NCBI GenBank assembly: GCA_018902385.1
Contig: JABSSW010000062.1
Location: 176,619 to 240,618 of the forward strand
DNA length: 64,000 bases
DNA from: Physcia stellaris
Taxonomy: Eukaryota; Ascomycota; Lecanoromycetes; Caliciales; Physciaceae
Direction of reading: 5' to 3'
Part shown: positions 1,559 to 54,527 of the stretch, in pieces
Position numbering within the stretch: the first letter of the stretch is position 1
Layout: each line of letters begins with the position of its first letter
Made by a program: the position numbers and the translations under genes
The notes under the pieces: generated by a model
Databases searched by the model: none
Seen by the model: only the letters and a program-made list of their open reading frames with translations
What the model was told of the DNA's origin: nothing

Positions 1559-1590
1559 TGTTCATTTGAGTCTCTAGGCTGATAATGAAA

Positions 1591-23133: not shown

Positions 23134-23348
23134 TGACGAACGTGCATCGAATTCATCATCTGAACAGAATTAACATCGTGTTAACATCGTTATTTTATCA
23201 TCGAATGTTAAAATCGAAATTCGTCTTGACGCATTCAAGAAATCAAATTTTTTACATATGTTTTTGCAAATTTTTATGTATTTGCTTTCTATTTAGAAAT
23301 TTTCGTGTAATTATGTATTAATATTATATCAATGTATGACATCTCACA
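23134..23348 (+). repeat. 5' LTR of the Gypsy element
   Basis: A 215-bp repeat beginning TGACGAACGTGCATCGAATT and ending ACATCTCACA. It matches 31338-31551 with scattered, mostly C/T and G/A differences. Confidence 0.88.
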
Positions 23349-24798
23349 TTATTTTTAAATCATTTTAATTTTTTCAAATTGTTCGAAATACGACAATTTA
23401 TTCAATAAACAAAATTTCAATCAAACGCGAAAATTTAAAACGTCAACAATTAAATTTTAAACGTGTAACGAAAACGAGAAAATTTTGTTCACGTGAAATC
23501 AAAAATTCAAACGATTCGAATGAAAATATCGAAATTTTATTTCACGCAAATCATTTTTTAAAAAACAACGATTTCGAATGTGAATTTTCACGAAAAAATC
23601 ATTTCGATATTTTAACAAAACGACGACGAAATCGTACGTTACAAATCGAAACGACGAATTGACATTATTTTCGATCATTGAACGAAAACGACAAATTGTG
23701 TAAACGACGTTCGATTTCATCAAAAATCAATATTAATAACGAAACATCACGAATCAAACATCAATTATTCATTTTGTTTATCACATTTTTAAACAACACG
23801 TTACATATCATTCGTTGTTTTTCGCAATTGATAATGATCAAATAATGATTTTTTTTATTTTTTATTGCAAACGTTTTTCGATTTCGATTTTTTTTTTTGC
23901 AAATCAATTTTTTTTTTATAAACAATCATGTCATTCAACATATTCGCATTCATAAAACGCAAACGCATTATTCAAATCGATCGTATTGTTTTTTTAAAAC
24001 AAAACAGAAATTATTTGATTTCATTGTTTTGTTTTTGAATTCAGACATTTTTTTGTTGTCATTTCGAAAACGTTCATCAACTTTCGATAAAAAAAAACGA
24101 TTGTAAAAATTTTTCAACATCTGTATTGAAACACAATTAATCAATTGAATTCGTCATGATTCAACATCAATGTTCAAAGTTTTCGAAAAATTACGCGTTG
24201 ATAAAAACATCGACGTAATTTGCATTGTTCAATGAAATGAACACGTCGATAATTACAATAAATTTGTTAATATTGTTCAAATCATTCGAAATCAACAAAT
24301 CGATTTTAAATTTAAAAACAACGATTTTTTCATCGAAAATTTTCAATTCACGATCGAAAACGTCATTTTTCAAATCAATTTGAAAAGAATCGATACAATC
24401 GTTTTCGTTTCATTTTCGAATACAATCGTTAAAAAAAATAAAAAACGTAATATTAAAATTTCGAATTTTTTCAAATTTTCACACAACATTTCGAAATTAT
24501 TTTATGAAATTTGAAAATTATTGATTCGTAACAAATTTATTATCAACAATAATTATTATTTTACGAATCAGATGAAAATTTTGATCGTATTATTGTGATT
24601 GAATAAAATCGTTCGTGATCATGTTTTTGTTCGACGCAAACGTGATTTTTTATTTTTCAAAACGATTGACGAAATGTTTATTTTATTGATTACAATTTTT
24701 GTCGAAAAAAACGTCGATCGCATCGTTCGAAATAAATTTAAAAATTTCAAAATGAACATCAATTAACGTTTTTCGGATTTTTTTCAGAATTCGTTTTT

Positions 24799-25161
24799 TT
24801 GTTTAGTCAGTTATTTGATTATTTTCAGCAAATTTTGACTAATGAATTTCGCGAAAAATTAACATTTATTTTTCAACGAACTATCGTCAGCAATGAGAAA
24901 TTCAACGATGTCAATTCGCTGAAAAAATTGATTGAAAATGTGAATCAAAAATTTCACAATTTCAAAAACTATCAAATCATTAAATTTGAAATATTCATTC
25001 GAAATGATCAATCAACGAATAAAAAAATCAACGTCAAATTTTCTATTCGCGTTTTTCTCTCGTCAATTTTTAAAAATTTCTCGATTTCGAAATTGATCGC
25101 GCTTAAAAGTTTTCAAATAAAAAAAAAACGTCAACGAGTTGTTACAAATGCGAAACGTTGA
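24799..25161 (+). pseudogene. gag-like remnant of the Gypsy element
   Basis: A 120-codon open piece upstream of the protease remnant, rich in Phe, Asn and Lys after AT mutation (for example FRKEL-like FREKLTFIF). The position fits gag. No zinc knuckle is readable. Assigned by location rather than by a clear motif. Confidence 0.5.
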
Positions 25162-25393
25162 ATCATTGATCAAAAAATTGTTCAAAATCAAAATTCGTTG
25201 TTTTTTATATTCAAAAGATATTACGCAAAGAAAAAAACGTTCTGAAAATTTACAACACAATCGATTTCATGTTCAAAAATTCGATTCAATTAAATCAAAT
25301 TATTACGAACGATAAAATCAATGAAATTAATAACGAATTTTCATTCGAACATGAATCGAAAAACGTTTAAATTTTCTCAGAATCGCGAAAAAA

Positions 25394-25630
25394 ATGTTGT
25401 CGATTTCAGCAATGTTCAAAATATTCAACACGTTTAATAAATTCACAAACAATTCATTAATCATTCAATGTACATTAATTTTCGATAAATACGAACACAA
25501 CGTGCAAACATTAATGAACACAAATGTCATTGAATTTGTTTTCATTGATGAAAAAATTGCGCAATTGATTTGTGAAAAATTTCAAATAAATTTTGTAATT
25601 TTTTTGATTCAAACACGTCAACGAATTTGA
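25394..25630 (+). pseudogene. Aspartic protease remnant
   Basis: The stretch around ALID/TGA-type protease sequence is decayed, but FIDEKIAQLICEKFQI follows the former active site as it does in fungal Gypsy proteases. The catalytic Asp-Ser/Thr-Gly triplet is not preserved. Confidence 0.6.
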
Positions 25631-26481
25631 CGATCGTTTGATTAAATTTATTATTCATGTCATTTATTTCACATTCACAATGCAAAATCATTTTGAATTA
25701 TTTATTTTTATGTTCATTACGAAAATAAACGTTCATTTTTTGATTTTGAATAAATTTTGAATGAACGTGCACGACGTGATATTAAATATGCAAATCGATA
25801 AAATTATTTTTAAATTTAATCGTTATATTTATTTCGAAACGTTTAAAAATTTGAAAACGTTTTTTGAACATCGACATTCATCAAAAAATATTTATTTATT
25901 ATTTTTCACATCGTTCGAAAAATTTTCAATATCGATAAATTCGCAAAAATATACGATTTTGCAAAAACGTTTATCGTCGAAAACGATTAAAATTCAATCA
26001 TTTCGTTTTACAGTCGAAAATTACGATGAAAAAAATGAATTTTTTTCGAAAATCGTGTTAGATTTCAATTCTCGATATGTCATTGAAAAAATTGATAAAA
26101 AATATTTTTTCGTCAAATTCTTTAAAAAAAAACGACGTATTAAAATCATACGAAAATTTCAACAATTTACATTCATGAAATTTTTTATTCGAAAATCGAA
26201 TTTAATCAAAAAATTTTTCGACGATTTAGTCGACGATTTAAAATCACGATTTTCGACAACGAAAAATATGAAAACAATTTAAATTTCGATACATTTTGAA
26301 ATGTTTTTTTATCGACGTAATCGTTTTTCAATTTCTGATCGAATTTTAAAAAAAAAAAAAAAGAAATCAAAACGTTTTCGTTGATCATTAAGAAATTAAA
26401 TGAAATTATTAACAACGTTAAAGAAAATTTAATTCAAACGAAATTCGATTTCGATATGAATTCAAAAAAACGTTTAAAATT

Positions 26482-27293
26482 ATGAAAACAATCATTGAAA
26501 AATTGAAACGTAAAGTTTTTGATTTTTTTAAACGATTCGAAAATATATTCAATTTCAAAAAAATCGATAAATTATTTTTTCACAGATTTTACGATCACAA
26601 AATCGAATTGACTGAAAAATCGATTCAATTGTCTCGAAATCGAATTTATTTTTTATCGTTTAGAAAATTCGAAATTTTACAGAAGTATTTTCATGAAAAT
26701 TTTCAGAAAAAATTTATCAATTCAAACAAGACATTTTATATTTGTTTATTTTATTCGTTGTCAAATCAAACGATCAATTTCGTTTGTGTGTGAATTATCG
26801 AAAACTGAACGTCATAATCAGACGCAATAATTATTCTATTTCATTAATCGAAAAAATTTTCGTTAAAATTATCGATTGTAAATTTTTGTTCAAATTAAAC
26901 ATCATATCGATTTTCAACAAATTTCGAATGAATTCACAAAGCGAAAATTTTACAATTTTTATATGTTCATTGAACATTTACAAATATCACGTATTGTTTT
27001 TCGAATTAATCAATGATTCGATCAATTGACAACATTATATGAACGATTTGTTGTTCGAATATATTAATTATTTTTGTCAAATATATTTGAATGATATTTT
27101 CATTTATAACAAAATTCGAAAAAAACACGAGCGACATTTCATTCAAATATTTCAAAAATTAAAAAAAGTCGAATTTCAAATCGATATCAAAAAATACGAA
27201 TTTTTTAAAACGAAAATTTCATTTTTAAAAATCATATTGTCAACGAAAAACTTACGCATGAATTTTAAAAAAATACAAAACATTGTCGATTGA
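26482..27293 (+). pseudogene. Reverse transcriptase remnant
   Basis: Recognisable Ty3/Gypsy RT in pieces: YDHKIELTEK, then YFLSFRKFEILQKYFHENFQ, then FRLCVNYRKLN, and the catalytic block seen as IYLNDIFIYN, where the second position of YxDD-type LDDI is Asn instead of Asp. An internal stop at 27027-27029 and frame breaks interrupt it. The Asp-to-Asn change is a G-to-A transition, as expected from the mutation process. Confidence 0.88.
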
Positions 27294-27479
27294 ATTCGTT
27301 CAACGTGCATCAAAAAAATGCAAACATTTGTAAATTTTTGCAATTTTTATCGACGTTTCATCAAAACATTTTCGAAATTCGTCAAGTTTCTGATTCGAAT
27401 GATCAAAAAAAAATTGATTTCGAATGAATTGATTTCGTTAATGAAACGTTCGAAATTTTGAAAAAACAAATGATCGAAA

Positions 27480-27960
27480 TTTCAATTTTTCGACATTACG
27501 ATCGCAATCGTAAAACAATTTTAAAAACAGATTTTTCGAATTGATGTTTAAATGAAATTTTATTTCAATACGACGACGACGAAATGTTTCATTCGATAAT
27601 TTTTTTCAACAAAAAAATGATTTTTGTCGAATGCAATTACGAAATATATAACAAAAAACTTTTGATCATTATTCGATGTTTAAAACATTGAAAATCAAAA
27701 TTTGAAAACATCGACGAATTCGTCGAAATTTATATCGATCATAAAAATTTGAAAATTTTCATGACGAACAAAAAATTCATTTTTCGTCAAATGCGTTGAG
27801 TCGAAATTTTGATCGATTACAATATCAAAATTCAATATCAATTCGAAATCAAAAATGTTAAAACAAACGTTTTGATTCGAATGTTTGAATTTCGTTTTGT
27901 CGATGACGACAAACGAAAATTTTATAAAAAACAAATTTTGTTGTCGTTTTTTCGATTGCA
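27480..27960 (+). pseudogene. RNase H remnant
   Basis: Remnants of the Gypsy RNase H domain: KTDFSN in place of the usual TDAS start, [18 protein letters not shown], and IYIDHKNLKIFMTNK. The order and spacing match the family. Stops interrupt the frame, including one at a former Trp position. Confidence 0.82.
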
Positions 27961-28259
27961 ATTATGTTCGATTGACGTTCAAAACGATTTGTACGAACGA
28001 ATTATGCAAATCAATCGAAAAAATGAAAATTGCATTAATTATCGTCAAATTTTGATCGATAAACAAATCATCAACGAAAAAATAAATTTGCAAAAATGTT
28101 TCGATCGAAACGACGTTTTTTTCAAAAACGAAAATTTATGAATGTCAAATCGTTTAAATTTTATGATTGAAATAATTCGCGATGTTCACGATTAATTTTT
28201 TTGTGTTCATTCAAACATGAATCGTATTGAAAAATTCATTAAACGTTATTATTATTGAT

Positions 28260-29215
28260 TTAATATGCGATTGTTTATCAAACGTTACATTCGTAATTGT
28301 CATAAATGTCAACGATTTAAATTTTCACACGATGATCGTCATGAATTGTTAATATCATTGTGAATATTTAATCAGCGATGACTAAATATTTCGATAAATT
28401 TCATAATCGAATTATTTGAATTCAAAAAAAAACAACGTTATTTGCATTATTATCGATCGATCAATCAAGAAACGACATTATGTTTCATGCGTGATCGATA
28501 ATGACGAATTGACAATCGAAATTTGCGTCAAAATATTGTTTCATTACGTATTTCGCACGCATGATTTATTTTTTTCAATCGTTTCGAATCGAAATAATCA
28601 ATTTGTGAATCGCGTTTGAAAAATTTTTTGCAAACGTTTAAAAATCAAATGTAAATTGTTCACGACGTTTCAATTTCAAATCGATGATCAAATCGAACGA
28701 ATTAATCAAAACATTGAAATTCATTTACGTTTGTATTGCAATTATCGTCAAAACGATTGAATTGATTAAATCGACATCATGAAATTCGTTGACAACAATG
28801 ACGTTTTCGCAATTATCGAATTCATTTTTTTTATTAATAAAAATTATTATTTTCGAATGATTTTTGATTCAAATTTGAATAATTACGAAATCATTAAAAA
28901 ACGTTTATTAATCAAACAAAACGAATTCATTGTCGAAAAAATGAATCGCATTATCGAATAAATTAAAATCAACGTTGTCGATGTCAAACAAAAAATAATT
29001 ATTCGAATTAATAAATTTTGTTTTTTTATCAATTTTGAAATAAAAAATTATGTGTAATTAAATTGTCGTTATATTAAAACGATTCGTTCATTTGATAAAT
29101 TGAATAACAAAAAATTAAATTCATATTTCGTTGTCAAAAAACGAAATATTGTTTACGAATTCGAATTGTTCGATGACATGCACATTCATTCAATTTTTCA
29201 TTTTTGATTGTTAAA
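28260..29215 (+). pseudogene. Integrase remnant
   Basis: The HHCC zinc-binding end is visible as RNCHKCQRFK (about 28285-28320), followed by a decayed catalytic core with many stops. At about 29155-29205 the text HIHSIFHF resembles the conserved end of Gypsy integrases just before the chromodomain. Confidence 0.75.
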
Positions 29216-29278
29216 AAAAATTTTAACGATTCATTGAAAAAACAACACAACGATTTTTCGAAATTCGTTATCGCAAAT

Positions 29279-29450
29279 GAAACGTTCGAATGAAAATTCG
29301 ACAACATATTGCAATTTCGATATCATTATTATCGTTTTCAATATCGTTGTAAATGATCGAATTGAAATTTTCACGATCGCATTTGATATTATGTCGACGA
29401 CGATGAATTTCAAAATGTTCAAAATATCGTCGATGTTTTTCACGAAATTA
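29279..29450 (+). pseudogene. Chromodomain remnant
   Basis: The frame shows FDNILQFRYHYYRFQYRCK, then a segment with DDDEFQNVQNIVDVFHE. This is the layout of the C-terminal chromodomain of fungal chromoviruses. Former Trp codons (TGG) have become TGA stops, for example at 29291-29293, which is a GpG-to-GpA change. Confidence 0.75.
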
Positions 29451-30289
29451 ATTCAAAAACAACAAAATTTGTTTTGCGAAATGATTAAATCGTGAATTTT
29501 ATTGTTTATGATCGATCAGAAAATTGTCATCGAATTCGTGACAATTCATTTTCAAATTGTCGTCAATGATTTTTTTTTTGTCATTCGTTTCGTTGTCATT
29601 TTGCGTTATTTACAATCAGAATTTACGTCGCATGAAAAATTGAATCATGTTAAAAACATTTTCAGAAATTGTCGTCAAATCTTATTGAACAATAAATGAT
29701 AATGTAAAATGTCATGCAATGATGTGAATGAACAACAAATTGTTAAAAAATTCGAATATTTACAAATTCGTCAACAAGATTCTCAATTGTTTATTAATGA
29801 CACGCGAAATTATTTATAAAATTCGTACAAAATGTTTGCTTTTCAGAAAATTTAATACATGCATATTTTGTTGAATGCATTGTACGAATCAATTGTTTTA
29901 TATGCGATAACGTCGACGTGTTAATCGTGATGACAGAAATTTCATCAATTTGATCAAACTGTTCGTTTCGTGATATTAATTTGATGTTGCAAGAATTTTC
30001 AAAATTGTCGATACGCGAAATTGAATTCTTAATGATTTGTTTATTAATGTTCGTCGAAATTATTTTTAACGAATTGCATAAATTGTTCATTTTTCAAAAC
30101 ATTCATTGTTTTCACGTTTTGTCGCATGCAATGTATTACATCGATTTTCGCATGTTCGAAAATATCAATCGCATTAAAAATTGTCGCGACGATAATACAT
30201 TTTTATAAAAAAATATTCAGTAAATTCGCTTGACGCGAATGATCGATCGAAAAGAATTCTGATCAATTTTGCGTTCGTATTACTTAAAG

Positions 30290-30770
30290 TCGATAATTTT
30301 CATCAATTGAAAATTCGAATTTTCAATGCGATAAATTATCAAATTTTTTTCGTTCAATCATCAAAATTCATTTTGAATGCGAAAATTCGTACAGTTGTTT
30401 CGCATTTTGCACATCAATCAACAATCACATATGATTTTCACTTATTTAGTCAAAATTGTAAATCTGAATAAGCGCATTTCAATGTTGCAAAAATGACAAA
30501 AATCGACTCATTATCGCAATAGTTTTGCGATTTCGAAAACTTCGTCGTCGTCAAATTTGTGTCAGACGATCAGTTGAGATGTTTGCGAAAAAATTTCGTT
30601 TAATTCATTTTCGTTTGTACAATTGCTTCGCATCTTGCATCTCAATCAACAGTCACATATGATTTTCATTTATCTAGTTAGAATTGTAAATCAGAATGAG
30701 CGCATTTCAATGTTTCAAAAATTATTAAAATCGATTCATTATTGCAATAGTTGTGAGACTTTGAAAATTG
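30290..30770. repeat. Dispersed AT-rich repeat, two adjacent copies (third copy at 40508-40760)
   Basis: The block 30386-30540 recurs at 30611-30770 (shared ATCAATCAACA...CACATATGATTTTCA text). A more mutated copy including the left neighbour sequence lies at 40508-40760. It is in the 3' untranslated part of the Gypsy element. Confidence 0.75.
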
Positions 30771-31337
30771 CGAAATTGCGAAATTTGTGTTCGTTTCTCA
30801 ACTCTTCGCAATGTTCGCAGCGTTTCAATGCGATTTCGATTATAACTTCGTACGCATTCGATCGATTTTCGATATTATTGATTATTTGAATAGAATTCAC
30901 TTCGAGCTTCAAAACGAGCCTTCGTTTGTATATTTTAGTGACTGAATGCAAATGTTATTAAGATGCGAAATCGATGAAATCGCAAAACGAATGCGAAATC
31001 ATTGAGATTTTGCGAAAATTTAAGCAATCTTATCAGATCTGATTCTAATTCTAAAAGTTTTCGACAAAGTTTTTTTTAAAAAACTTTCGAATCTACTTGT
31101 TTTATTAATAAATTCAAATTGTTAATTTCAAAATATAATCATATAAATGTTTTCGAAATCTAAACGATTTTATTTCGTTGACGAAATTTTTTCGCGACGT
31201 TTCGCGTTTACTTTTTTGTTTCGACAATTAATCAATTCGACATTATTCAGAAATATATTTACATCGCGCAAAACGTTCAGAAAAAAAAATCAATTAATCG
31301 TTTCGAAACGAAATTGACGAAAAACGAAAAATAATAT

Positions 31338-31551
31338 GACAAACGTGCATCGAAATCAACATTTGAACAAAATTAACATCGTGTTAACATCGTTATTTTA
31401 TCATCGAATATTAAAATCGAAATTCGTTTTGACGCATTCAAAAAATCAAATTTTTTACATATGTTTTTGCAAATTTTCGTGTATTTGCTTTTTATTTAAA
31501 AATTCTCGTGTAATTATGTATTAATATTATATTAATGCATGACATTTCACA
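31338..31551 (+). repeat. 3' LTR of the Gypsy element
   Basis: A 214-bp direct repeat of 23134-23348, beginning TGACAAACGTGCATCGAA and ending ACATTTCACA. Confidence 0.88.
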
Positions 31552-32071
31552 TATTGATCATATAATATTAACGAATAAGACGTGTATTTTTCGTTAAAAA
31601 AATCAATTTGTATTTCAAAATAACATTTGTTACAATAATTTCGACATTTGAAAATTCGATTTCGATAATTTGTTTATTTATTTGATTAAAATTGTTTTTA
31701 TATTCGTAATTGATATTAATAACATGTTTTGTCGTTTTAATAAAATTATTAAAAACAATCGTTTTTTTCGTTAATTTGCAACATTAATTATATTCGAATT
31801 CATTTATTCAAAATTGTATTGAAATTGTATAAATTGATATATCAATTAAACATTCAAACGAATTTCGTCGAAAAAAATTACAATTATATTTAATAAAAAA
31901 TTATCGAACGAAATCGACAAAGAAAATTCGTTTATTTAATTTATGTTAAAAATACAATTTTCGCAAATATATTGCAATTAAATTCAATTAATATAATTTG
32001 ACGAAAAAAAAATCATTGAATTTTTGTTGAATTAATATTATGATATTTGTATATTTTTGTGTTTTTATTTG

Positions 32072-32076
32072 CATAC
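32072..32076 (+). repeat. Target-site duplication, left copy
   Basis: CATAC immediately before the left LTR. The identical pentamer follows the right LTR at 35332-35336. Confidence 0.75.
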
Positions 32077-32271
32077 TGTTGAGAAGTACAGCCTCCGCAG
32101 GAAGGTAACCAAGGGGCCAGTTGATATAACCTGACGAAAGAAGGACTAGTGCGTCCTTGTTGGGACTAGCGCCTTGGCATCCGCACACTTTCTGTGCTTT
32201 CACTTCATGTATGTTACCAAAAAACGAGATTCAGAGCAATAGAATGGTAGTCACCCATGATTCTTTCAATA
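32077..32271 (+). repeat. Left LTR of the zinc-finger element (unmutated)
   Basis: 195 bp, normal GC content. It serves as the reference for the mutated right LTR at 35137-35331. Confidence 0.88.
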
Positions 32272-32581
32272 GGTTATGAGAACCGGGTTAGCAGCTTTCG
32301 CTACATCTAGTACCAGCTACAGCATGAGCGCACGTAGTACCTAGCCGCCAGGCAGTACAGCAATAGGTTTGCAGTACTCCAGCAGTAACCAACTCCATTG
32401 GGAGTATCCAGTCTAGCCAGACCACAACGGCCTAATTGCATCGAGCAATACTCAGTACCTTGGTACACAGTACATCCAGTACACCCTCAGTTACTTCAGC
32501 AGTAACACCTACCTTACGAATACCTTACGAACTCGCGTATACCTACTCGGACCTCTACGCGAATCCTATCACTCAGTCAGA

Positions 32582-33859
32582 ATGACGACTCCATCATCTA
32601 CAACGCACTCGCCTCTCTCGATTCGTGCACCAGAAATCGTATGCAAGCACCCAGAGAGTGCATCCTCCACCTCCGAATCGCCGCCCGCTTTCCTTCCTTG
32701 GTCACCTCTCCTTTGCACCTGCATTTCCGCCAATGACATCTCCGCGAATGAGTCAATAACGCAGGATCTTCGATGCTTGTACGAGCAGCATCAACAGGGT
32801 CAAACCAGTCAAAAATGCGCTTGGTTCATTCAAGCAAAGAGGGCACAAGAGAATTACCTGATGCGGAAGCATGAGTCGGAGATCAAGAGCAAACTCAAGC
32901 AGGAAGCGAAGGAGTCATTGAAACAGAAAGAGGAGGCCCGCATAGCAGCGAAACGGGCTGAAGGATATACGTGCAGGCGTTGCAAGCATTCGGCCAAATT
33001 CGATAGCAACACCAAGCTTCACGAGCATATCCGCACTCGGCATGCGAAGAAGCCGAAATCGAAGCCTGCTCAGCAGTCTGTTGAGCATGTGGCCTCACCT
33101 CCTACTCCGCCTGCCTCGTCACCTCCTTCGTCACCTCAATCGGTCACCTCGTCACCTCCTACGTCACCGAAATTAGTAGCCGAGTCACCAGCTACTCCAA
33201 CTCCTTCAGAACTATCACCTACCTCGTCGGTTGCAACACCAAGAAAGCCGATATCTTGGGCAGAAATCGCCTCACGGCCTGTTGCGCCGAAACCCTCACG
33301 TCTCCCGATTGCGACACCCAAATCGGTGTGCAAACCGTTGGAGAATGCAAGCATTGCTTGCCCGCCTACTCCGCCTCGAACCCCTACACCATCGAGGCCC
33401 TATTTGACCGTGGACGACCTGTTCCGCATGTTCGCTGGGAAGCCGAGCCCATTTGGCCTGCAGCGGCACCAAATGCGCTCGTTCTCTCCGCGCGGCCCTG
33501 GCAAATGCAGTCCCGTCAGCAAATGTGGCCCCATACAAAGCCGCATTACGTCATACTTCCATGCGGCGGCCTCACCTGCTTCGAAATCGGCCAAATCCGA
33601 AGCATTTGCATCAACTCATGCCCGCGGAACCGTCCCGCGTCAATTTTCGGCCTCGGCCTCACCTACCTCTTTTCCTTCTCGATTTCCTATGGTCTCTCGC
33701 CCGTCTCCTGTTTGCAGGCATTGTCAAGGGCGTTCCGCCACCTATTGGCCTACTGGTTGGGCCATGCCAACTGCCGCAAGAGCCGGGAACAATGAGATAC
33801 CCAAGGGAATGCGTTATTGGCGTTTCGCTTCTCTCCACCCTACTTTGGGGAAGTATTGA
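32582..33859 (+). CDS. C2H2 zinc-finger protein encoded by the LTR element
   Basis: A 425-residue open frame, the only long gene in the element. A charged coiled-coil-like helix (about residues 92-127, KQEAKESLKQKEEARIAAKR) leads into one C2H2 finger: C131, C134, then His 147/149 and H154 (YTCRRCKHSAKF). A long Pro/Ser/Thr-rich region follows (about 160-300, with TPRKPISWAEIASRP), then a basic C-terminus ending with a possible CRHC pair near residue 379. Near 33.73 kb another frame reads on with a His- and Cys-containing stretch, so a frameshift may have cut off a second finger; the mutated relative at 41.5-43.8 kb keeps two fingers. It may act as a gag-like or DNA-binding protein of the element. 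I do not know a described function. Confidence 0.7.
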   Translation: MTTPSSTTHSPLSIRAPEIVCKHPESASSTSESPPAFLPWSPLLCTCISANDISANESITQDLRCLYEQHQQGQTSQKCAWFIQAKRAQENYLMRKHESEIKSKLKQEAKESLKQKEEARIAAKRAEGYTCRRCKHSAKFDSNTKLHEHIRTRHAKKPKSKPAQQSVEHVASPPTPPASSPPSSPQSVTSSPPTSPKLVAESPATPTPSELSPTSSVATPRKPISWAEIASRPVAPKPSRLPIATPKSVCKPLENASIACPPTPPRTPTPSRPYLTVDDLFRMFAGKPSPFGLQRHQMRSFSPRGPGKCSPVSKCGPIQSRITSYFHAAASPASKSAKSEAFASTHARGTVPRQFSASASPTSFPSRFPMVSRPSPVCRHCQGRSATYWPTGWAMPTAARAGNNEIPKGMRYWRFASLHPTLGKY

Positions 33860-35136
33860 CCCTCCTACTCCGGGGAGTCACTACTTCGGGGAGTTAGCAT
33901 GTTGTTTGTTTGCCCGCCCGCCCTCCCTATTAACCGTTGATCGGCCTGGGAGAAACTAAAAGTTGTTGTTGTTGTTTTAATGGATTCGATGTCCCGCTCC
34001 TCCCGCCCTGTGGCCTGAGAAAGCTTTACAAGTTGTTGTATGCTTTGTTTTATTGTTTCACTAATGAGTAGAAACTTACCTCTGTTGTGACTTCGTCTTG
34101 ATCTAACACGACTAATCTACGATATCGCCTCTTTCCCTACTACCCTTGAGGCTTAGTCGCCCGATAAATACGAGGGAAGAGAATGAGTAGAGTACAGTCC
34201 TGGCAATACAGTCTCGGAGAAGCGTACTTGACGTACTGTACGAACAATTGTTAGAAGAGGAGGAGCAGACTAGATAGTACGACTTCGAAAAAGCGTACTG
34301 TACGGATCCGACTAGAAGTCACATAGTACCGCTTCAGAAAAGCGTACTATGCAGCCATATTACATACTCGGCCTTGCAGAGCAGAAACTCGGTCAAGAAC
34401 TCAGAAACTCGATCAAGAAAAACTGGAGATATCTGACCTTTTCGCATACTAATCGACCTGATTCTCTGGCAGATCTTAATCAGATCAGAAAAGCTCGATT
34501 CTGCACTCTTCGCATCGATGTATGCCCGCAGAAACCTGCCCGCATTCGATGCACCATCTTTCATATCGATTTCTCGACCATCTCCAGCCTCTCGCATCGC
34601 ATCGACATACCTTATGAACTTCCTACAGCCAAATTACATAGGGATCGATTCATTGATGTCGCAAGAAGTATCTGAGAACTCTGAAATTCACAATGATGCT
34701 ACATGGTGTAATTCGCATTCTCGTTCGCCATCGCAGAACTCAGACATAAAATACTTGCTCCTTGATGTATCTTTTATCCAATTCTAGATACCGATTTTCG
34801 CATCGATGCTTCACCTCATGAAAATTCAAAACACGGTCGCAATTTTTCAGTCATTCGATCGCACGTCTTGCAAATCGACCTTACGTCAAAATATCTGAAA
34901 CACATCGAATTTCGATTCGTTCGTTTCTGCAGTTTTCACATCGATGCATGACCTCGATCAAGACATATCACGTTGAAAGAACTTGCTCGGAAGTTTCAGA
35001 CAATACATCGCTGAAAAAATCAGGATTTGCGTCGCTGAGAATTTGAATCTACATCGCTGAAGAAACTTGCACGAAAGCTTCAGACTGAACTCGTTAGAAT
35101 ACTGAGCAGAAAACACAGGCGAATGCTGTGAAAGAG
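33860..35136 (+). other. 3' non-coding part of the zinc-finger element
   Basis: No open frame with family features. At 34215-34350 the motif AGCGTACT recurs in variants (AAGCGTACTTGACGTACTGT, AAAGCGTACTGTACGG, AAAGCGTACTATG), forming small inverted repeats around GTAC. From about 34.8 kb rightward C and G become rarer, marking the start of the mutated end. Confidence 0.6.
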
Positions 35137-35331
35137 TGTTGAGAAATACAGTCTTCGCAAAAAGATAATCAAGAAATCAATTGATATAATTTGACGAAAA
35201 AAAAAACTAGTGCGTTCTTGTTGAAATTAGCGCCTTGACATTCGCACACTTTCTGTCTTTCATTCATGTATGTTACAAAAATAACGAGATTCAGAGCAAT
35301 AGAATGATAATCATTCATGATTCTTTCAATA
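35137..35331 (+). repeat. Right LTR of the zinc-finger element (mutated)
   Basis: 195 bp aligned to the left LTR with about 27 C-to-T or G-to-A differences, a few small indels and no change in the opposite direction that I could find. Confidence 0.88.
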
Positions 35332-35336
35332 CATAC

Positions 35337-35797: not shown

Positions 35798-36615
35798 TCT
35801 AACATTCATTTTAACGATAGTCGATATCGACTATCAACTGATTTTGGTGAGTGGGATTAGGGTTAACTAGATTCACTATCAACAAAAAAAAGTTTTGTTG
35901 ATAGTGAATCGAGTTCTCAATGAATAATGCTCGTATCAAAAATCTGAAATCAGATCTGAAATTTACGCAAAATTTTCAACAAGATACACATACATTATGA
36001 CTCGATCGGGTTAGCGCCTGGTTTTTTAAAAAATTTCGAAATCTTTTTTGAAACGAATAGTTTTAAGTCCCGAATTTTTGTTGATAGTGAATCTAGTTTG
36101 ACGTCAATATTACATGTATGAAAAATCTGAAACCAGATTTGAAATCTACGCAAAATTTGCAACAAGATACACATACATTATGATTCGATCGGGTTAGCGC
36201 CCGATTTTTTAAAAAATTTCGAAACTTTTTTTGAAACGAAAAGTTCTAAGTCCCGAACTTTTGTTGGTAGTGAATCTAGTTTGACGTTAATATTACATGT
36301 ATGAAAAATCTGAAATCAAATCTGAAATTTACGCAAAATTTTCAACAAGATACACATACATTCTGATTCGATCGAGTTAGCGCCTGATTTTTTAAAAAAT
36401 TTCGAAACTTTTTTTTGAAACGAAAAATTCTAAGTTCCGAACTTTTGTTGGTAGTGAATCTAGTTTGACGTTAATATTACATATATGAAAAATTTGAAAT
36501 CAAATCTGAAATTTACGCAAAATTTTCAACAAGATACACATACATTCTGACTCGATCGAGTTAGCGTCTGATTTTTAAAAAATTTCGAAACTTTTTTGAA
36601 ACGAAAAGTTCTATC
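35798..36615 (+). repeat. Composite repeat copy A: palindromic leader plus four ~183-bp tandem units
   Basis: The leader holds a perfect 20-bp palindrome GATAGTCGATATCGACTATC (35816-35835), a telomere-like ATTAGGGTTA (35856-35865), and a hairpin (35865-35915; arms of about 23 nt, from AACTAGATTCACTATCAAC to its complement around an A-rich loop). Four tandem units of about 183 bp follow, each with CTCGATCG(G/A)GTTAGCG. The whole structure recurs at 48311-49165 in the same orientation. Confidence 0.85.
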
Positions 36616-37200
36616 TCTTATGCGCTCGTTTATGAGGGCTCATAAACGAGATTTTGTATGAGAGGCTAGGGTCTTGGCTCCCGAGCAGGGAAGCTCATAA
36701 ACGAGATTTGGGGAGGACTCATAAACGAGACAACTAATACGAATTTGAAAATTCTGAAAAATGCATTTTGTAGAGCGAATCTTGTTTTCTTGAATAGAAA
36801 AAAGAAGTTTGTAAAAATAATAACATTTGAGATAGTTATCATTTTTTAAAAAGTTCGAAAAGTTTTGAAGTTCGCGACGATCTATCTCGCCAAACCTTAA
36901 TTTTCAAAGTTGCACCGTTGTGTGAGTTTTTGACATGATAAAGTTTTTTTTGCAAATTTGAAAAATTTAACATTGAAAATGTATAAAAATGATTTTCAAG
37001 TGTAGGGTTAGGGTTAATATTGATCGAGAAATAATTTTTCAAAAATTTCAATTGAAAAAAATGAAAGAACGTTTCATACTAAAAATATGAGATTTTTTTT
37101 TATGCTATAAAAAGAACATAATTTTTTGAATATTTTAGAATAAAAAAAAAAAAAATATTATTGAAAATCGATGAAAATATCGATTGATTTCAAAAGTTAT
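36616..37200. repeat. Seed region of the satellite, with CTCATAAACGAGA palindromes
   Basis: It contains a perfect 12-bp inverted repeat (CTCGTTTATGAG at 36625-36636, then GG, then CTCATAAACGAG) and two more CTCATAAACGAGA copies before 36735, in less mutated sequence. The same dyad, decayed, lies in each satellite unit that follows. TAGGGTTAGGGTTAA at about 37001-37015 is telomere-like. Confidence 0.75.
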
Positions 37201-40110
37201 ATTTAAAAATTGTTATATGTTCATTTACGAAAAATATGTTTCGTTTATGAACATACACAAAAAGTTGTAAATTTGTATCGAAAAATGCAAATTTTTTCAT
37301 ATATAACATTACGTCATATGTTGAAAATTCATCAAGATATTAAACATTTCATTTTTGCAATATTGAAAATGTATCGTGCTTCAATACGAAAAATATGTTT
37401 CGTTTATGAACATACACGAAATAAATGAATATTTGTATCAAAAAATGAAAAGTTTTTCATAGACAACATTACGTCATATGTTGAAAATTCATAAAGATAT
37501 CGAATATTTCAATTTTTCGAAATTGAAAATTGTATCGCGCTTTCATAAACGAGAAATATGTTTCGTTTATGAGCATACACAAAAAAACTATAAATCTGTA
37601 TCAGAAAATCGAAGATTTTTCATATATAACATTACGTCATATGTTGAAAATTTATAAAGATATCGAACATTTCAATTTTTTTCATATTGAAAATTGTATC
37701 GTGTTTCAATACGAAAAATATGTTTCGTTTGTGAACATATACGAAATAAACTTTATTTGTATCAAAAAATTGAAAATTTTTCATATATAACATTACGTCA
37801 TATGTTGAAAATTTATAAAGATATCGAACATTTCAATTTTTTCATATTGAAAATTGTATCGTGTTTCAATACGAAAAATATGTTTCGTTTGTGAACATAT
37901 ACGAAATAAACTTTATTTGTATCAAAAAATTGAAAATTTTTCATATATAACATTACGTCATATGTTGAAAGTTCATAAAAATATCGAATGTTTTGAATTT
38001 TGAAATTAAAATGTATCGTGTTTGTAAACGAAAAATATGTTTCGTTTATGAACATACACAAAAAAAATTATAAATTTGTATCAAAAAATCGAAATTTTTT
38101 TATATATAACATTACGTTATAAATTGAAAATCGACAAAATTATTAAATATTTTAATTTTCGAAATCAAAAATTCTAAAATGTTTTAAAATGAAGAAAATA
38201 TTTCGTTTATGAGTTTACACAAAATTGTTATAAATTTGAATAATAAAATCGCATATTTTTCATGTTTAACATTATTTCATAAATGAAAAATCGATAGAGA
38301 TATTAAATTTTTCAATTTTCAAAATCGATAAAATTTTAACATTTCATAAATGAGAAAAATATTTCGTTTATGAGCATAAACAAAAATTTTATAAATTTTT
38401 ATATTAAAATCGCATATTTTTCATGTATAACATTATTTCATAAATGAAAATCGATAAAGATATTATATTTTTCAATTTTCAAAATCGATCAAATTTTAAC
38501 ATGTTCATAAATGAGAAAAACATTTCGTTTATGAGCATAAACAGAAATCTTATAAATTTTTATAATAAAATCGCATATTTTTCGTGTATAACATTACGTC
38601 ATAAATGAAAAATCGATAAAGATATTAAATTTTTCATTTTTCGAAATCGAAAAAATTCTAACATGCTTCATAAATGAGAGAAATATTTCGTTTATGAACA
38701 TAAAAAAAAACTTATAAATTTTTATAATAAAATCGCATATTTTTCATGTATAACATTACGTCATAAATGAATAATCGATAAAGATATTAAATTTTTCAAT
38801 TTTCGAAATCGAAAAAATTCTAACATGCTCATAAATGAGAGAAATATCTCGTTTATGAGCATACACAGAAAACTTATAAATTTTTATAATAAAATTGCAT
38901 ATTTTTCATGTATAACATTATTTCATAAATGAAAATTCGACAAAGATATCAAATTTTTCAATTTTTCAAATAGAAAATTCTAACATGCTCATAAATGAGA
39001 AAAATATCTCGTTTATGAGCATACACAAAAAAATTATAAATTTTTATATTAAAATCGCATATTTTTCATGTATAACATTATTTCATAAATGAAAAATCGA
39101 TAAAGATATCAAATTTTTCAATTTTTCAAATAAAAAATTCTAACATGCTCAAAAATGAGAAAACATTTCGTTTATGAACATATACAAAAATGTTAAAAGT
39201 TTTTACATTAAAATCGATTCTTTTTCATGTATAACATTACGTTATAAATGAAAAATCGATAAAAATATTAAATTTTTCAATTTTCGCAATCGAAAATTTT
39301 AACATGTTCATAAATGAAAAAAATATTTCGTTTATGAACATAAACAAAAATCTTATAAATTTTTATATTAAAATCGCATATTTTTCATGTATAACATTAT
39401 CTCATAAATGAAAAATTGATAAAAATATTAAATTTTTCATTTTTCGAAATCGAGAAAATTTTAACATGCTTCATAAATGAGAAAAATATCTCGTTTATGA
39501 GCATAAACAAAAATGTTATAAATTTTTATATTAAAATCGCATATTTTTCATGTATAACATTATTTCATAAATGAAAAATCGATAAAGATATTATATTTTT
39601 CAATTTTCAAAATCGATCAAATTTTAACACGTTTCATAAATGACGAAAAACATTTCGTTTATGAGCATAAACAGAAATCTTATAAATTTTTATAATAAAA
39701 TCGCATATTTTTCATGTATAACATTACGTCATAAATGAAAAATCGATAAAGATATTAAATTTTTCAATTTTCGAAATCGAAAAATTTAAACATTTATCAT
39801 AAATGAGAAAAATATTTCGTTTATGAGCATAAACAAAAATTTTATAAATTTTTATGATAAAATCGCATTTTTTCATATATAACATTACGTCATAAATGAA
39901 AAATCGACAAAAATATTAAATTTTTCAATTTTCGAAATCGAAAATTTTAACATGTTCATAAATGAAAAAATATTTCGTTTATGAACATGACAAAAATTGT
40001 TATAAATTTTTATAATAATTTCGTATTTTTTTCATATATAACATTACGTCATAAATGAAAAATCGACAAAGATTTTAAATTTTTTCAATTTTCGAAATAT
40101 CAATTTTCGA
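37201..40110 (+). repeat. ~161-bp satellite array, about 18 copies
   Basis: The landmark CGTTTATGA(A/G)CATA recurs at 37242, 37401, 37564, 37726, 37886, 38043, 38204, 38365, 38526, 38689, 38850, 39010, 39169, 39329, 39492, 39656, 39819 and 39976, a mean step of 160.8 bp. Many units keep a dyad of the form GCTCATAAATGAGA...TCTCGTTTATGAGC and a second landmark CATGTATAACATTA. Open frames here are by-products of the repeat. Confidence 0.92.
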
Positions 40111-41530
40111 CAATTTATTTAAAAACACAACAATGACAAATCAATTTTCAAACATGTTGACATTACGAATTTGATCATTTCAAATTTGAATGACATTCGA
40201 AATCGTGTGTTCGTATAAAATAACAATTTGAATAAATGTTTAATTTATTCAATCGAAATATTTTTCAAATTTTATCGAACAAAATGCCGATTATCAAAAA
40301 TTAAAACGTATTTATTTTAGAAAATTTATATCGTCATCGATGTTTTTCAATTTGAAATTATCATTATTTATAATGTCAATTATAAATAAAATTCGAAAAA
40401 TATAATATCAAAAATGTATAAAACACAATTTAGAATTAAATATTCAATATATTCGTTTAATAACGAATAATTAATCGAAAAACATTTTGATTAATTTAAT
40501 ATTCGAATTTTTTAAAATCGATAATTTTTATTAATTGAAAATTCAAATTTTTAATACGATAAATTATCAAATTTTTTTCATTTAATTATCAAAATTTTTG
40601 CGTTTATACAATTGTTGCATTTTTTGTATCGCAATCAACAACAACGTATTATTTTAAATTATTTATTCGAAATTGTAAAATAAAATTAACGCAATTTAAC
40701 GTTGCAACAACAACGAAAATCGATTTATTATCGCAATAGTTATTTGATTTGAAAAATTATGTTGTTGAAAATTTCGAACGATTTTTTAAAAACATTTTGA
40801 ATTTGTTTGTAATAAAAATAATGTTAAATCAACAAATACAAAATCAATTATTTTACAAATTGACGTTTATATAATCAATTGATTTGTTTAATCGTATACG
40901 TATTTGATGATTTATTCGAAAATACGAATATTTGAATTCAATCGAATATTTGACGTTGACGTGATTAAATCAATCGTTTTCGTAATTTATCGAATTTTGC
41001 TAATCGAATTGTTTATTATAATTTCAAAAAATTCGATTCGCAATATTTTGTTGATTTAAATTTTGAATATTTTACGTTATTATCGTAAAATGTTTTGCAT
41101 TTCAAAAAAAATAAATGTCAAAAATACAAAATAACATAAATTTATCGAAAAAAAAAATACAATTCAAATACATTATACATTTTTTAAATTGTTTTTTTCA
41201 AATTGTTTTTTTAAAATTAAATACGTTTAACGAATCATAAAATATAAAATAAATCATTGTCAATTACACGTACAATAATTATGTTGACGACATAATTAAT
41301 CAAAACAATAATTTTCACAAAATTAAAAATCGTGTAATATATTAAGATTCGTGATTTAAATTCAATCATCAATTAATTAAACGTAAAAAAATCACAAATA
41401 AACAATCGACAATTAAAATATTATATTCAACGAATAATTTATAAATCAAGAAATAATCAATATTACGAAATGTAAATTTTTATCAATTGACGTGTTACGA
41501 TAAAACGTATTGAATAATAATGTGATGAAT
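40111..41530. other. AT-rich sequence without genes
   Basis: Mutated sequence. 40508-40760 is a copy of the dispersed repeat at 30.3-30.8 kb. Nothing else is recognisable. Confidence 0.6.
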
Positions 41531-41805
41531 AAAATGATTGAATTGTTATTATTTAAAAAAACAAAATGCGAAATATGAATCAAATTGTCAAAACGTTAAT
41601 TCGTTTTTGTCAAAATATTTTGATTTCAATTTTATGTGAAAATTTATCGTAACAAATGTCATCAACGAAAAAAAATGACAACGTTTTCGTTGTGTTTTGT
41701 TGAAATTGTTTTCGCGTGTCGAGAAATCAACGATTTATCGTTCGAGAAATCTATTAGTAATACAAGTAAAAAAGCAAGCAAACGATCTGTTTTTTCATGA
41801 AAAAA

Positions 41806-42087
41806 TCAACGATTTTCGAGATTTTTGAAATTGCGCTCGAACGTTCGAAATTTCTCAAATTCATGACGAAATGTTTGATCGAAATGAATCGTTCGTAAAT
41901 GTCGATGCAAATCATTGTTGAATTCGAAAATATCGTTGCAAATGCGACAAACGTGCGAAAAAACGAAAATGACATTGAAAACAAATAAAAAAAACGAATA
42001 AATCGAAAATTTGCAACGAGAAATATCGATCGATTTATTATGACGAAATTCTCGATATTTCTGAAATAAATAAACGAGAAAAATCAA
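41806..42087 (-). pseudogene. Mutated C2H2 ORF, C-terminal finger
   Basis: It contains a second C2H2 finger, HVCRICNDIFEFNNDLHRHL followed by RTIH. It lies downstream of the first-finger fragment on the minus strand, with frame breaks between them, so the ancestral protein probably had at least two fingers. Confidence 0.65.
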
Positions 42088-42536
42088 TAATTTGTATGAT
42101 AAAATGATCGATTTCTCAAATCACTTGTTGAAAATAAAAAATGTGAATTTAATTCGAAATCGAACGTATGTTGTTGAAAATTTTTCGAATTTCGAATTTT
42201 CGAATTTTGATTAATTTTGATGTTTTGATTGATTTGCAAAACTGAAATATGCGATGATTTTGATTTGATAAAAATAGAAAAAAATAAAAATAACTCGAGA
42301 ATTCGCATCGTTTTTGATGTGTAATAAATTTGATTTCGTGAATTTTTTAACGAACATCTCGAACAGATTATCGATAATAAGATAAAATTTTTGATGTTGA
42401 TATTTTGATATTGATTTTTGAAAAAAAATAAGCGACGAAATAAACGAATAAATAATTGATGCAATTTTCAACGCTTTTGATACACGTTTTGATGTAAATA
42501 TCGAAAGACGTGAAAACTTTTCGATGATTTATGAAA

Positions 42537-43052
42537 CTATTTCGATTCAAAATATTGACTTTTTGATGTTGCAAATGATAAAAACATTTTTTTTGATGTC
42601 GATATTGATATAACAAATAAAATCAATAAAAATGAATTATCGATGATCGATTTTGAATAATTAACAAATAATGTGAATATCAATGTTGATTCATTCGATA
42701 ATAAAAATGTTGCAAAAACATAAACATTGCGATCGATATGATTTTGATGAATTCGCTTGAAATAAATGTTGCAAAAAATGTTAATATTGCGAATTAATTT
42801 CGATGTAAATTTCGCGATTTCGTTTGCAAATTTGATAAATTTCTGATGATGATTTTGAATATGTTGATGAAATTTCGTATTGTTCGAAAATTTGACAAAA
42901 CAACGTTTGCATGCATATGTTTCTAAACGAATTTTTCGATTTTTTTGTTGTTTTTTCGTTATGCGAACTGTTTCGACTTTTGTACGTTTTTTTTGTTGTT
43001 GCAATTCGATTTCTCGTTGTATTTTTTGAAACGTTGTTCGTTGTTTGATCAA
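42537..43052 (-). pseudogene. Mutated C2H2 ORF, N-terminal part with first finger
   Basis: The frame shows a Gln/Lys-rich helix and the finger YACKRCFVKFSNNTKFHQHI followed by a second His pair. It aligns with the finger of the intact element at 32.97-33.04 kb (YTCRRCKHSAKFDSNTKLHE). The later part is decayed. Confidence 0.7.
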
Positions 43053-43828
43053 TTGTCATTTTCAATCAAACGAATTTGTTTTTTTTTTGTTTTTTTTGTT
43101 TACATTCTGCAACGTATTGTTGATATTGTTTCGAAAAAACAGTTCGAATATGCATTGACGTGTTTTTTAACAGAATTTGCATATCGTCATTTGCTAATTG
43201 ATACAAAAAATTCGCATTGTTTACATTCAACGATTTGAATGCGTTGTTTTTTGAAATTTTGCGTCATGAACAAAACGACGTTTTTCATTTGTGATATTGT
43301 AAAATGATTGTACGATCAATGTTTCGTCAAAAAAATGATTTCGTATTTCGATATTGATGACATGATATGAAAATTGCGAAAAACTTGTGAATAAATGTTT
43401 GACGTCGAATGATTAGAAATTTTTGATGCAATAAATGTTGATTGTTGCAAAACAATTGAAATTGTTATCGTCAAACAAAATTGAATGCGTTTATCGTTTG
43501 CTCGAATTGAATGTTGCAAAATAATTGATGCAATTATCGTTTGCGAATTGAATGTTTCACAAAAATTAATTAAAACATTGCAATTGAATGTTGTTCATGT
43601 TAATAAAACAACGTTAAAAATTGTCAATCGTTATTCGATAACGCTTATCATTTGTTACGATATAATTGCAATATGTTTTTTGAAAAATAAAATGATTAAT
43701 TGTTATTATTTAAAAAATTGCAAAACACATATAGAAATTCTGTCGAGATTCTGCGAAAAACGTTAATTTTTTTGATCAAGTTATTTTAATTTCTAGTTTT
43801 ATGTGCAAATTTATCGTAACAAAACGTC

Positions 43829-48263: not shown

Positions 48264-48310
48264 GTGACGACGCGACGAGCGAACCCGGCGGCCGCGACTC
48301 GGAAACCGTA
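48264..48310. other. Isolated GC-rich island
   Basis: About 45 bp of GC-rich sequence (GACGACGCGACGAGCG, then CCCGGCGGCCGCG with a NotI-type GCGGCCGC at 48288-48295) between AT-rich DNA and composite repeat copy B. It is alien to its surroundings. Confidence 0.7.
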
Positions 48311-54468: not shown

Positions 54469-54527
54469 AAAATAAAATCGATCGAAAAATAACGAAAGAA
54501 AACGACGTTTTTCGAATCGATCAAAAT

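Follow-up and report, generated by a model that had tools for sequence, protein, structure and literature searches.

Features of the locus

We have analysed a stretch of 64 kb (the window) from the genome of the lichen fungus Physcia stellaris. It contains the following features; CpY stands for CpC and CpT, CpR for CpA and CpG, and o/e for observed/expected.

1..22000: part with GC 0.49, which served as the unmutated reference (CpC o/e 0.92, CpT o/e 1.04)
22500..32071: AT-rich DNA depleted in CpY, in which about 26590-27894 shows similarity to RT
32072..32076: target-site duplication CATAC, left copy, outer flank
32077..32271, + strand: left (5') LTR, 195 bp, GC 0.46, with C or G retained at all 27 sites altered in the right LTR
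32272..35136, + strand: internal part of the 3.25-kb LTR element, GC about 0.5 at the left, with GC and CpC dropping toward the right end (150-bp profile; related elements)
32582..33859, + strand: open frame of 425 codons without a Pfam match, in which a C2H2-like stretch was recognised by eye
35137..35331, + strand: right (3') LTR, 195 bp, GC 0.30, with 27 C>T/G>A changes, in CpC/CpT only
35332..35336: target-site duplication CATAC, right copy, outer flank
35798..49127: region between 818-bp direct repeats, 93% identical and made of 183-bp units
50601..57067, + strand: AT-rich remnant; its five long open frames are devoid of Trp, and one has an OrsD domain, another DEAD/Helicase_C

The CATAC duplication on the outer flanks supports the original prediction that the two LTRs belong to a single insertion, and counts against LTRs of different insertions. 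In a global alignment they differ by 28 substitutions (16 G>A, 11 C>T and one C>A) and four gap columns. About 27 C-to-T or G-to-A changes had been predicted; there are exactly 27, all of them in the direction from left to right, as in the unidirectional C:G to T:A transitions of RIP (repeat-induced point mutation). The C>A change and the small indels had been missed. Classified by the 3' neighbour, 19 transitions are in CpC and 8 in CpT, precisely the numbers expected, and none is in CpA or CpG, against 21 CpC, 27 CpT, 29 CpA and 12 CpG sites available in the left LTR. The columns used for the tally of LTR pairs hold 21, 26, 28 and 12 such sites, so that 27/47 CpY and 0/40 CpR have changed (Fisher p = 4.7e-10).

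The gradient along the element is mainly supported by the 150-bp composition profile. When the element is compared with 20 related loci, its right end has higher CpY fractions at very few sites, since few alignments with at least 80% identity extend that far. The open frame at 32582..33859 weakly resembles a degraded frame on the minus strand, at 42540-43052.

LTR pairs and retrotransposon families

The direction of the changes and their 3' context recur in several repeat families, and single elements have one-sided hits. We scored 40 of 149 candidates, a sample biased toward less mutated LTRs, which gave 12 pairs besides that of the window. In these 12 the pooled C/T differences are CpC 54/423, CpT 29/661, CpA 5/767 and CpG 1/278; with the window pair included they become CpC 73/445, CpT 37/705, CpA 5/823 and CpG 1/302, with 8 transversions. 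The pairs span a continuum from no change to saturation. Five of the 13 show 0–2 CpY differences, and one lightly changed pair (L019) has two CpA and one CpC. The changes are one-sided in the window pair (27 vs 0, one transversion) and in L018 (23 vs 1, no transversion). No target duplication was found in four of the 13 elements (L022, L024, L026 and L027), in which the first 40 bases were unmatched by the query and the LTR starts were extrapolated.

A GC-rich retrotransposon copy, L056, could be compared with five of the 12 RT loci fetched; L060, L061 and L067 have diverged too far, and L057-L059 represent other elements. In the five degraded copies 96–99% of CpC and 80–94% of CpT have changed, against 6–14% of CpA and 3–8% of CpG, with just 10–21 T>C changes per copy. 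From L056 to L062, over about 3480 bp, there are 883 C>T/G>A changes, 30 reverse transitions and 12 transversions, the last at 0.0034 per site. CpC has changed at 438 of 444 sites (about 4.3 changes per site), more than 1000 times the transversion rate, and 29 of the 443 CpA of L056 are altered. The 5' base and the second 3' base have little effect at CpC and CpT: across the degraded copies the changed fraction is 0.97–0.99 for ACC, CCC, GCC and TCC and 0.84–0.90 for ACT, CCT, GCT and TCT. Before purines it is 0.09 in TCA (48/535) and 0.11 in ACA (36/325), with 22/522 in TCG and 25/271 in ACG. The few CpA changes of these copies are more frequent in CpApY (110/848) than before purines (63/1164).

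A second RT family has the same order when differences are counted in both directions: L057 vs L029 gives CpC 86/90, CpT 50/82, CpA 10/187 and CpG 1/112, and L057 vs L025 gives CpC 52/53, CpT 71/75, CpA 12/127 and CpG 6/96. Long comparisons in which transversions do not exceed 1%, 24 in all, give fractions of CpC 0.824, CpT 0.636, CpA 0.064 and CpG 0.026. An all-against-all comparison of LTR elements, in which old divergence among subfamilies is included (612 kb, 36818 transversions), has a weaker bias (CpC 0.207, CpT 0.115, CpG 0.076, CpA 0.053). Old comparisons rich in transversions, including tandem arrays, have mixed contexts. CpA as the main context, which would speak against the original prediction, was seen in no strongly mutated comparison of low divergence. 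The wider check that it called for, carried out on part of the genome, gave one and the same order in the 12 further pairs, the two RT families and the AT-rich blocks of the genome sample.

The process is neither swift nor universal, because L057 and L058 are little affected (94.9% alike over 3.5 kb; CpY 79/1833 vs CpR 54/1805) and the five LTR pairs mentioned above are nearly unchanged. A search of viral_contigs and genome_contigs with the RT protein of L057 found no relative. The published assembly of P. stellaris is a hybrid of Nanopore and Illumina reads, according to excerpts of its description (PMC7513301). We considered Nanopore polishing errors; they are unlikely to explain differences that are directed substitutions over kilobases.

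AT-rich DNA and RIP indices

CpY mutation affects half of the window. Between 23000 and 31900 CpC makes up 0.1% of the C contexts, with o/e values of 0.01 for CpC, 0.18 for CpT, 3.74 for CpG and 0.44 for TpA; the CpY signal thus reaches past the coordinates of the element. This region also has repeats at 23134-23368 and 31337-31571 which resemble an older LTR pair. The 818-bp repeats show C/T differences at CpC 18/58, CpT 17/137, CpA 5/175 and CpG 3/141, with 12 transversions.

Twenty pre-chosen stretches of 4 kb were taken as a sample of the genome. Their CpC o/e is 0.01 at GC<0.28 and 0.97 at GC>=0.44, a class which comprises 121 of the 160 half-kb blocks; GC-rich DNA is spared within the sample. 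The AT-rich blocks have the same context order as the LTR pairs and RT families. CpY changes fall in transposon families; several repeats are nonetheless unmutated. A CpC share below 6% is found in 32 of the 37 low-GC 1-kb blocks of the window and in 11 of 13 in the sample. The seven exceptions are W22001 at a domain edge, W36001 and W48001 in the 183-bp units, W57001, W62001 in a tandem array, L046:2001 and L052:2001. For the last one, which lacks CpY depletion, we have no explanation. Loss of CpG, as in decay of CpG methylation or a MIP-like process, was not found: CpG o/e is 3.7 in the most AT-rich DNA.

Classical CpA RIP gives a high product index and a low substrate index. Its CpA preference is not found in P. 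stellaris, as is apparent from the 5/823 CpA in LTR pairs and from the indices: none of 144 1-kb blocks from the window and the 20 sampled stretches passes the stringent RIPper thresholds. Two of the 144, both with GC 0.48, pass the older thresholds. The five degraded copies have product indices of 0.38–0.44 and substrate indices of 1.46–1.59. Standard RIP tests miss the mutation of Physcia because its base preference is reversed from the usual fungal one, so the indices are a false negative in the 144 blocks tested.

Stop codons in transposon remnants

The stop-codon pattern predicted from such a context is present in two classes of transposon remnant. Stops have arisen from 125 of 126 TGG codons, from 14 of 326 CAA and CAG and from 3 of 70 CGA. 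The 150 scored RT matches contain 250 TGA, 33 TAA and 3 TAG, and ten DDE_1 matches contain 44 TGA and 3 TAA. Of six matches to the rve domain, five are free of stops and one has two TGA. Since it is Trp that turns into stops while Gln and CGA codons mostly survive, the remnants retain long open frames, which gene predictors may call genes.

Origin of the mutations

RIP changes C to T on both strands, drives repeat families to low GC and spares genes; the enzyme behind it is a cytosine methyltransferase of the DNMT1 class. It operates premeiotically, in the sexual phase, and detects duplications by their homology when they exceed a threshold length. We consider it very probable that P. stellaris has a RIP-like, repeat-directed C-to-T mutator which reads a 3' pyrimidine (CpY) instead of CpA. 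It would attack CpC first, nearly to completion, then CpT, and mostly spare CpA and CpG. By analogy with RIP, catalysis would be due to a DNMT1-class cytosine methyltransferase acting in the sexual cycle. The enzyme responsible, perhaps of the DIM-2 type, would be different or modified.

The changes might also come from slow passive deamination of 5-methylcytosine in heterochromatin methylated at CpC and CpT, with no active mutator. The continuum of LTR pairs would suit such a decay, and the affected DNA lies in AT-rich blocks which are possibly heterochromatic. Yet the two LTRs of one insertion have equal age, and their changes are one-sided (27:0 and 23:1). Passive decay of 5-methylcytosine has a ratio to transversions far below 1000, and the ratio found from L056 to L062 is above that value. 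We regard it as rather unlikely. A cytidine deaminase of the APOBEC/AID type acting on retroelement DNA is much less probable still: it would account for C-to-T changes alone, here mainly in retroelements, but these enzymes read the 5' base, and in Physcia the 3' base decides. Moreover, remnants with DNA-transposon domains have the same TGA pattern. The small effect of the 5' base at CpC and CpT also counts against UV damage. A lichen is exposed to the sun and CC and CT are dipyrimidines, but UV should strike TpC before purines too, which is not apparent in the TCA and TCG counts, and GC-rich DNA is spared; this origin is scarcely credible. We give equally little credit to ordinary CpA RIP misread, with CpA already saturated in all the copies compared. 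L056 retains all four contexts, including its 443 CpA, and the indices of the degraded copies are the reverse of those of CpA RIP. In favour of such a misreading, counts from alignments can give a CpT excess in families with classical indices: in excerpts of published studies, families of C. truncatum called CpT have TpA/ApT of about 1.6 (PMC6180176), and in an alignment analysis CpT to TpT dominates in control genomes capable of RIP (PMC7882544).

Candidate methyltransferases

Both DIM-2-like and RID-like methyltransferases are present. A DIM-2-like protein on contig C3 has PF00145 and, below the curated cut-off, a match to BAH; its best match is Neurospora DIM2 (630 bits to 9bap/9baq, the next about 122). 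RID-like proteins, of the RID/Masc1 class, are found on contig C5, where the PPCQ and EQT motifs are retained, and on C6, where the match runs across two TGA, perhaps introns. When DIM2 residue numbers are matched to the PDB chain by an offset of 2, the DIM-2-like protein retains R1145 and D1173 and has I at R1175, a position where none of 120 homologues has R.

In the Neurospora DIM2-DNA complex, as described in excerpts of PMC11315935, the base 3' of the target is a cytosine; R1145 binds N7 of the opposite purine and D1173 the N4 group of that cytosine. From this we infer, beyond what those authors state, that these contacts would make C the preferred base 3' of the target, followed by T, with purines less favoured. 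In Neurospora, older genomic repeats still undergo RIP without RID, and RIP is abolished only in the rid dim-2 double knock-out (excerpts of PMC11969663); Neurospora thus has a branch of RIP that is due to DIM-2. No catalysis by RID in vitro has been detected so far, according to excerpts of PMC13297926. The DIM-2-like protein of C3 is our preferred candidate, with nearly even chances. Against it, Neurospora DIM2 with the same R and D methylates both CG and non-CG DNA, its sequence preference being left open (PMC11315935, in part); the Physcia protein has I in place of R1175, which opens the DNA and is essential in Neurospora; and RID is required there for duplications newly introduced (PMC11969663, in part). 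The two RID-like proteins, taken jointly, are a quite possible alternative.

We tentatively propose, at somewhat less than even chances, that RIP exists in two opposite dialects: CpR (CpA, sometimes CpG) and CpY (CpC > CpT, as in Physcia), the latter due to a DIM-2-class enzyme. Its target-recognition loop would read the purine that faces the 3' base; the catalyst would then have changed and not the recognition of repeats. As the common indices are built on TpA/CpA, CpY-RIP would be overlooked, and some fungi called RIP-negative could be strongly mutated by RIP.

Comparison with other fungi

To our knowledge, CpA has been taken as a near-universal context of RIP. Physcia resembles classical RIP, as in Neurospora crassa and Leptosphaeria maculans, by C-to-T changes on both strands, low-GC repeats and the presence of RID-like and DIM-2-like proteins. 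It differs by its order, CpC>CpT>>CpA, CpG, by depletion instead of enrichment of TpA and by mostly sparing Gln codons. With its sharp and almost complete CpY rule, Physcia offers a naturally occurring switch variant. Changes in CpC and CpT were known earlier.

The following comparisons draw on excerpts of the papers cited. The order in Neurospora is CpA>CpT>CpG>CpC (PMC5496416). In Botrytis, Sclerotinia and Magnaporthe RIP has a CpT signature tied to a RID motif (Amselem 2015, PMC4352252); there CpT stands alongside CpA and no CpC signature appears in the excerpts, whereas in Physcia CpC is the leading context and most CpA sites escape. Neurospora Tad1 and Stagonospora show CpT excess or CpC losses beside CpA RIP (PMC2621366) and Monilinia has double changes from CpC to TpT (PMC8959702); these accompany classical CpA RIP, unlike the replacement of CpA in Physcia. 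Trichoderma reesei is at the opposite end, with CpA and CpG leading and CpC least, and it also shows that the RIP context varies between species (PMC5496416). Microbotryum and other basidiomycetes have a RIP-like mutation of CpG/TpCpG, again a non-CpA context (PMC4352252), but in Physcia CpG is spared, and CpC and CpT change almost irrespective of the 5' base.

Among the papers listed by searches of the open PMC subset, we saw no prior report of CpC-led RIP or of RIP in Physcia. Other lichen-forming ascomycetes share with Physcia AT-rich repeats affected by RIP or, in Physcia, by a RIP-like mutation. Excerpts of the respective papers describe its detection by indices based on CpA/TpA in Endocarpon pusillum (PMC3897900) and, at a moderate 5–9%, in Cladonia metacorallifera and Gyalolechia flavorubescens (PMC7882544); in Cladonia rangiformis it is defined by GC content, with no context given in the excerpt (PMC12542154).

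The LTR pair and its relatives

The original prediction held that about 27 changes separate the two 195-bp LTRs of a 3.25-kb element, all from C/G on the left to T/A on the right, in CpC or CpT and never in CpA or CpG. This is confirmed by the alignment of the pair: 27 of the 28 substitutions have that direction, with 19 in CpC, 8 in CpT and none in CpA or CpG. Changes affect 27/47 CpY sites (CpC or CpT) vs 0/40 CpR sites (CpA or CpG; Fisher p = 4.7e-10). The element has termini TGTTG...CAATA and CATAC adjoins both outer ends, so that both LTRs most likely come from a single insertion. Its features, followed by a relative of its frame elsewhere in the window, are:

32077-32271, left LTR
32582-33859, frame of 425 codons that includes a C2H2-like stretch; Pfam gives no match
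35137-35331, right LTR
42540-43052 (-), degraded relative of this frame

No polymerase frame was seen in the element (32077-35331), which therefore looks non-autonomous.

A search of the genome gave at least 40 copies of the LTR, with 40 of 149 candidates scored. Thirteen LTR pairs, which span from zero to saturated change, show the same contexts, also when the window pair is excluded. The order of loss is visible in the LTRs of copy L018, where 17/17 CpC have been lost vs 6/31 CpT. The clearest case of a directed spectrum is a GC-rich retrotransposon (RT) copy, L056 (GC 0.51), compared with five degraded copies, L062-L066 (GC 0.23-0.27 where aligned). The comparison from L056 to L062 counts 883 C>T/G>A changes, 30 reverse transitions and 12 transversions; the four remaining copies agree. 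In these five comparisons the 5' base and the second 3' base have little effect at CpC and CpT; the minor CpA changes are more frequent before a pyrimidine (110/848) than before a purine (63/1164).

Changes at C by 3' base (CpC; CpT; CpA; CpG; transversions where counted). Pairs within the window or within LTR elements are scored as C/T differences, by the C-bearing copy in LTR pairs.
13 LTR pairs: 73/445; 37/705; 5/823; 1/302; 8
Same, window pair excluded: 54/423; 29/661; 5/767; 1/278
L056 to L062: 438/444; 400/460; 29/443; 16/412; 12
L056 to four other copies: 96-99%; 80-94%; 6-14%; 3-8%
Second RT family, parts of L057 vs L029: 86/90; 50/82; 10/187; 1/112
Second RT family, parts of L057 vs L025: 52/53; 71/75; 12/127; 6/96
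24 comparisons (at least 300 bp, at most 1% transversions): 0.824; 0.636; 0.064; 0.026
Every LTR-element comparison (945), with old divergence counted in: 0.207; 0.115; 0.053; 0.076
35798-36613 vs 48311-49127: 18/58; 17/137; 5/175; 3/141; 12
Units at 59999-61008: 14/19; 38/173; 5/143; 3/209; 7
Older pair 23134/31337: no CpC remaining; 8/10; 4/63; 3/40; 9

The RT-bearing copies L057 and L058 are 94.9% alike over 3.5 kb and have a weak CpY bias (79/1833 vs 54/1805); they are repeats which have largely escaped the mutator.

The two LTRs of one insertion are equal in age, yet the hits are one-sided: 27 vs 0 in the window pair, 23 vs 1 in L018 and 10 vs 2 in L026. In three other pairs (L020, L023, L027) they are spread more evenly, and regional chromatin differences could contribute to the asymmetry. 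L056 and L062 differ by about 4.3 changes per CpC site vs 0.0034 transversions per site. The evidence favours episodes of directed mutation rather than uniform decay.

Composition of the window and of the genome

The window is the final 64 kb of its contig, in an assembly of 43.97 Mb and 147 contigs. Positions 1-22000 have 49% GC and ordinary dinucleotides. Region 23000-31900 has 25% GC; there C is followed by A in 46.7% of cases, C in 0.1%, G in 46.6% and T in 6.6%. Observed/expected (o/e) ratios are 0.01 for CpC, 0.18 for CpT, 3.74 for CpG and 0.44 for TpA. RIP of the CpA type would enrich TpA and eliminate CpA. The window also holds these repeats:

35798-49127, 13-kb region between 818-bp direct repeats, 93% identical, composed of 183-bp units
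37161-40134, array of ~160-bp units within this region
58377-63069, three tandem arrays at the contig end, perhaps subtelomeric, with units of ~310, 307 and 347 bp; the third (block 62001) has only a partial CpC loss (9.6% share)

Contexts are mixed, with 100-215 transversions, in comparisons within the array at 37161-40134 (CpC 0/0) and in part of those near 48403-50280 and 62040-63368.

We sampled the genome in twenty 4-kb stretches at positions fixed beforehand, cut into half-kb blocks. The o/e ratios for CpC and CpT are 0.01 and 0.20 below 28% GC (10 blocks), 0.07 and 0.43 at 28-36% (15), 0.81 and 0.97 at 36-44% (14), 0.97 and 1.05 at 44% or more (121). One sampled block, L052:2001-3000 (GC 0.32), has no CpY depletion, so the signature is not found in all AT-rich DNA of this genome. 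On 1-kb blocks, the stringent RIPper thresholds, as quoted in PMC7882544, are passed by 0/80 blocks of the sample and 0/64 of the window; older thresholds are passed by 2/80 sample blocks, both with 48% GC. The AT-rich islands tested would score as free of RIP under these indices.

Stop codons

A mutator that hits CpC and spares CpA should turn TGG into TGA and leave CAA, CAG and CGA intact. Open frames of L056 with at least 120 codons, some of them overlapping, were aligned to the five degraded copies: TGG has become a stop in 125/126 cases (116 of them TGA), CAA and CAG in 14/326, CGA in 3/70. Genome-wide, RT matches (150 scored of 527 candidates) contain 250 TGA, 33 TAA and 3 TAG; ten DDE_1 matches contain 44 TGA and 3 TAA. 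Five long AT-rich frames at 50601-57067, OrsD-domain and DEAD/Helicase_C among them, contain not a single Trp among 2094 residues; prediction software could annotate remnants of this kind as genes.

Relation to RIP and candidate methyltransferases

The draft genome of P. stellaris, a lichen-forming ascomycete, was built from Nanopore plus Illumina data; the terms RIP, point mutation and transposable are absent from the main text of the genome paper (PMC7513301). A 2025 survey states that a CpA preference is shared (PMC12543289); Physcia is named neither in its main text nor in that of PMC7882544. CpA, CpT and CpG signatures have been described (PMC4352252, PMC2621366, PMC5496416, PMC6180176), and CpC changes are known alongside CpA RIP (PMC8959702). 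In the open PMC subset we found no report of CpC-led or CpY-exclusive RIP. The Physcia process works like RIP; it lacks the classical CpA preference, so we file it as a RIP-like variant, not classical RIP. A CpC/CpT preference instead of CpA, as originally proposed, is supported; the mechanism behind it we infer in part.

The assembly has four PF00145 matches, which we read as three putative genes, one DIM-2-like on contig C3 and two RID-like, on contigs C5 and C6. Against structures of Neurospora DIM2, the C3 protein scores 630 bits. In the DIM2-DNA complex a cytosine lies directly 3' of the target base; R1145 contacts N7 both of the guanine paired with it and of the purine that follows, D1173 contacts N4 of the cytosine, and replacing these residues by alanine lowers activity about 8- and 10-fold (PMC11315935). 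Both purines that can pair with a pyrimidine present N7, and the amino group is that of C, from which we would infer that C, then T, is favoured 3' of the target; the authors of the structure leave specificity open (PMC11315935). A review gives the DIM-2 preference as CpT (PMC13297926).

The Physcia protein keeps both residues. Neurospora DIM2 has the same R and D, so these alone cannot explain a Physcia-specific switch. In our model most mutation would come from the DIM-2 branch in Physcia and from the RID branch in species with CpA RIP; in Neurospora, RIP of genomic repeats can occur without RID (PMC11969663). At L014:1973-5326(-) and in 120 homologues (P0121-P0240) the position of R1175 has I, L, F or others, and never R in the homologues; R1175 is the DNA-opening arginine, and R1175A kills the activity of Neurospora DIM2 (PMC11315935). 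Of the 120 homologues, 111 have R at the position of R1145; at that of D1173, 91 have D and 28 have E. E replaces the D of Physcia and Neurospora in DIM-2-like proteins of six named lichens (P0180, P0189, P0195, P0197, P0230, P0234), which we take to be Teloschistales; that of Letrouitia (P0218) has D. The C5 RID-like protein retains the catalytic motifs, and the C6 gene, L013:1401-2609(+), is shorter and additional to it.
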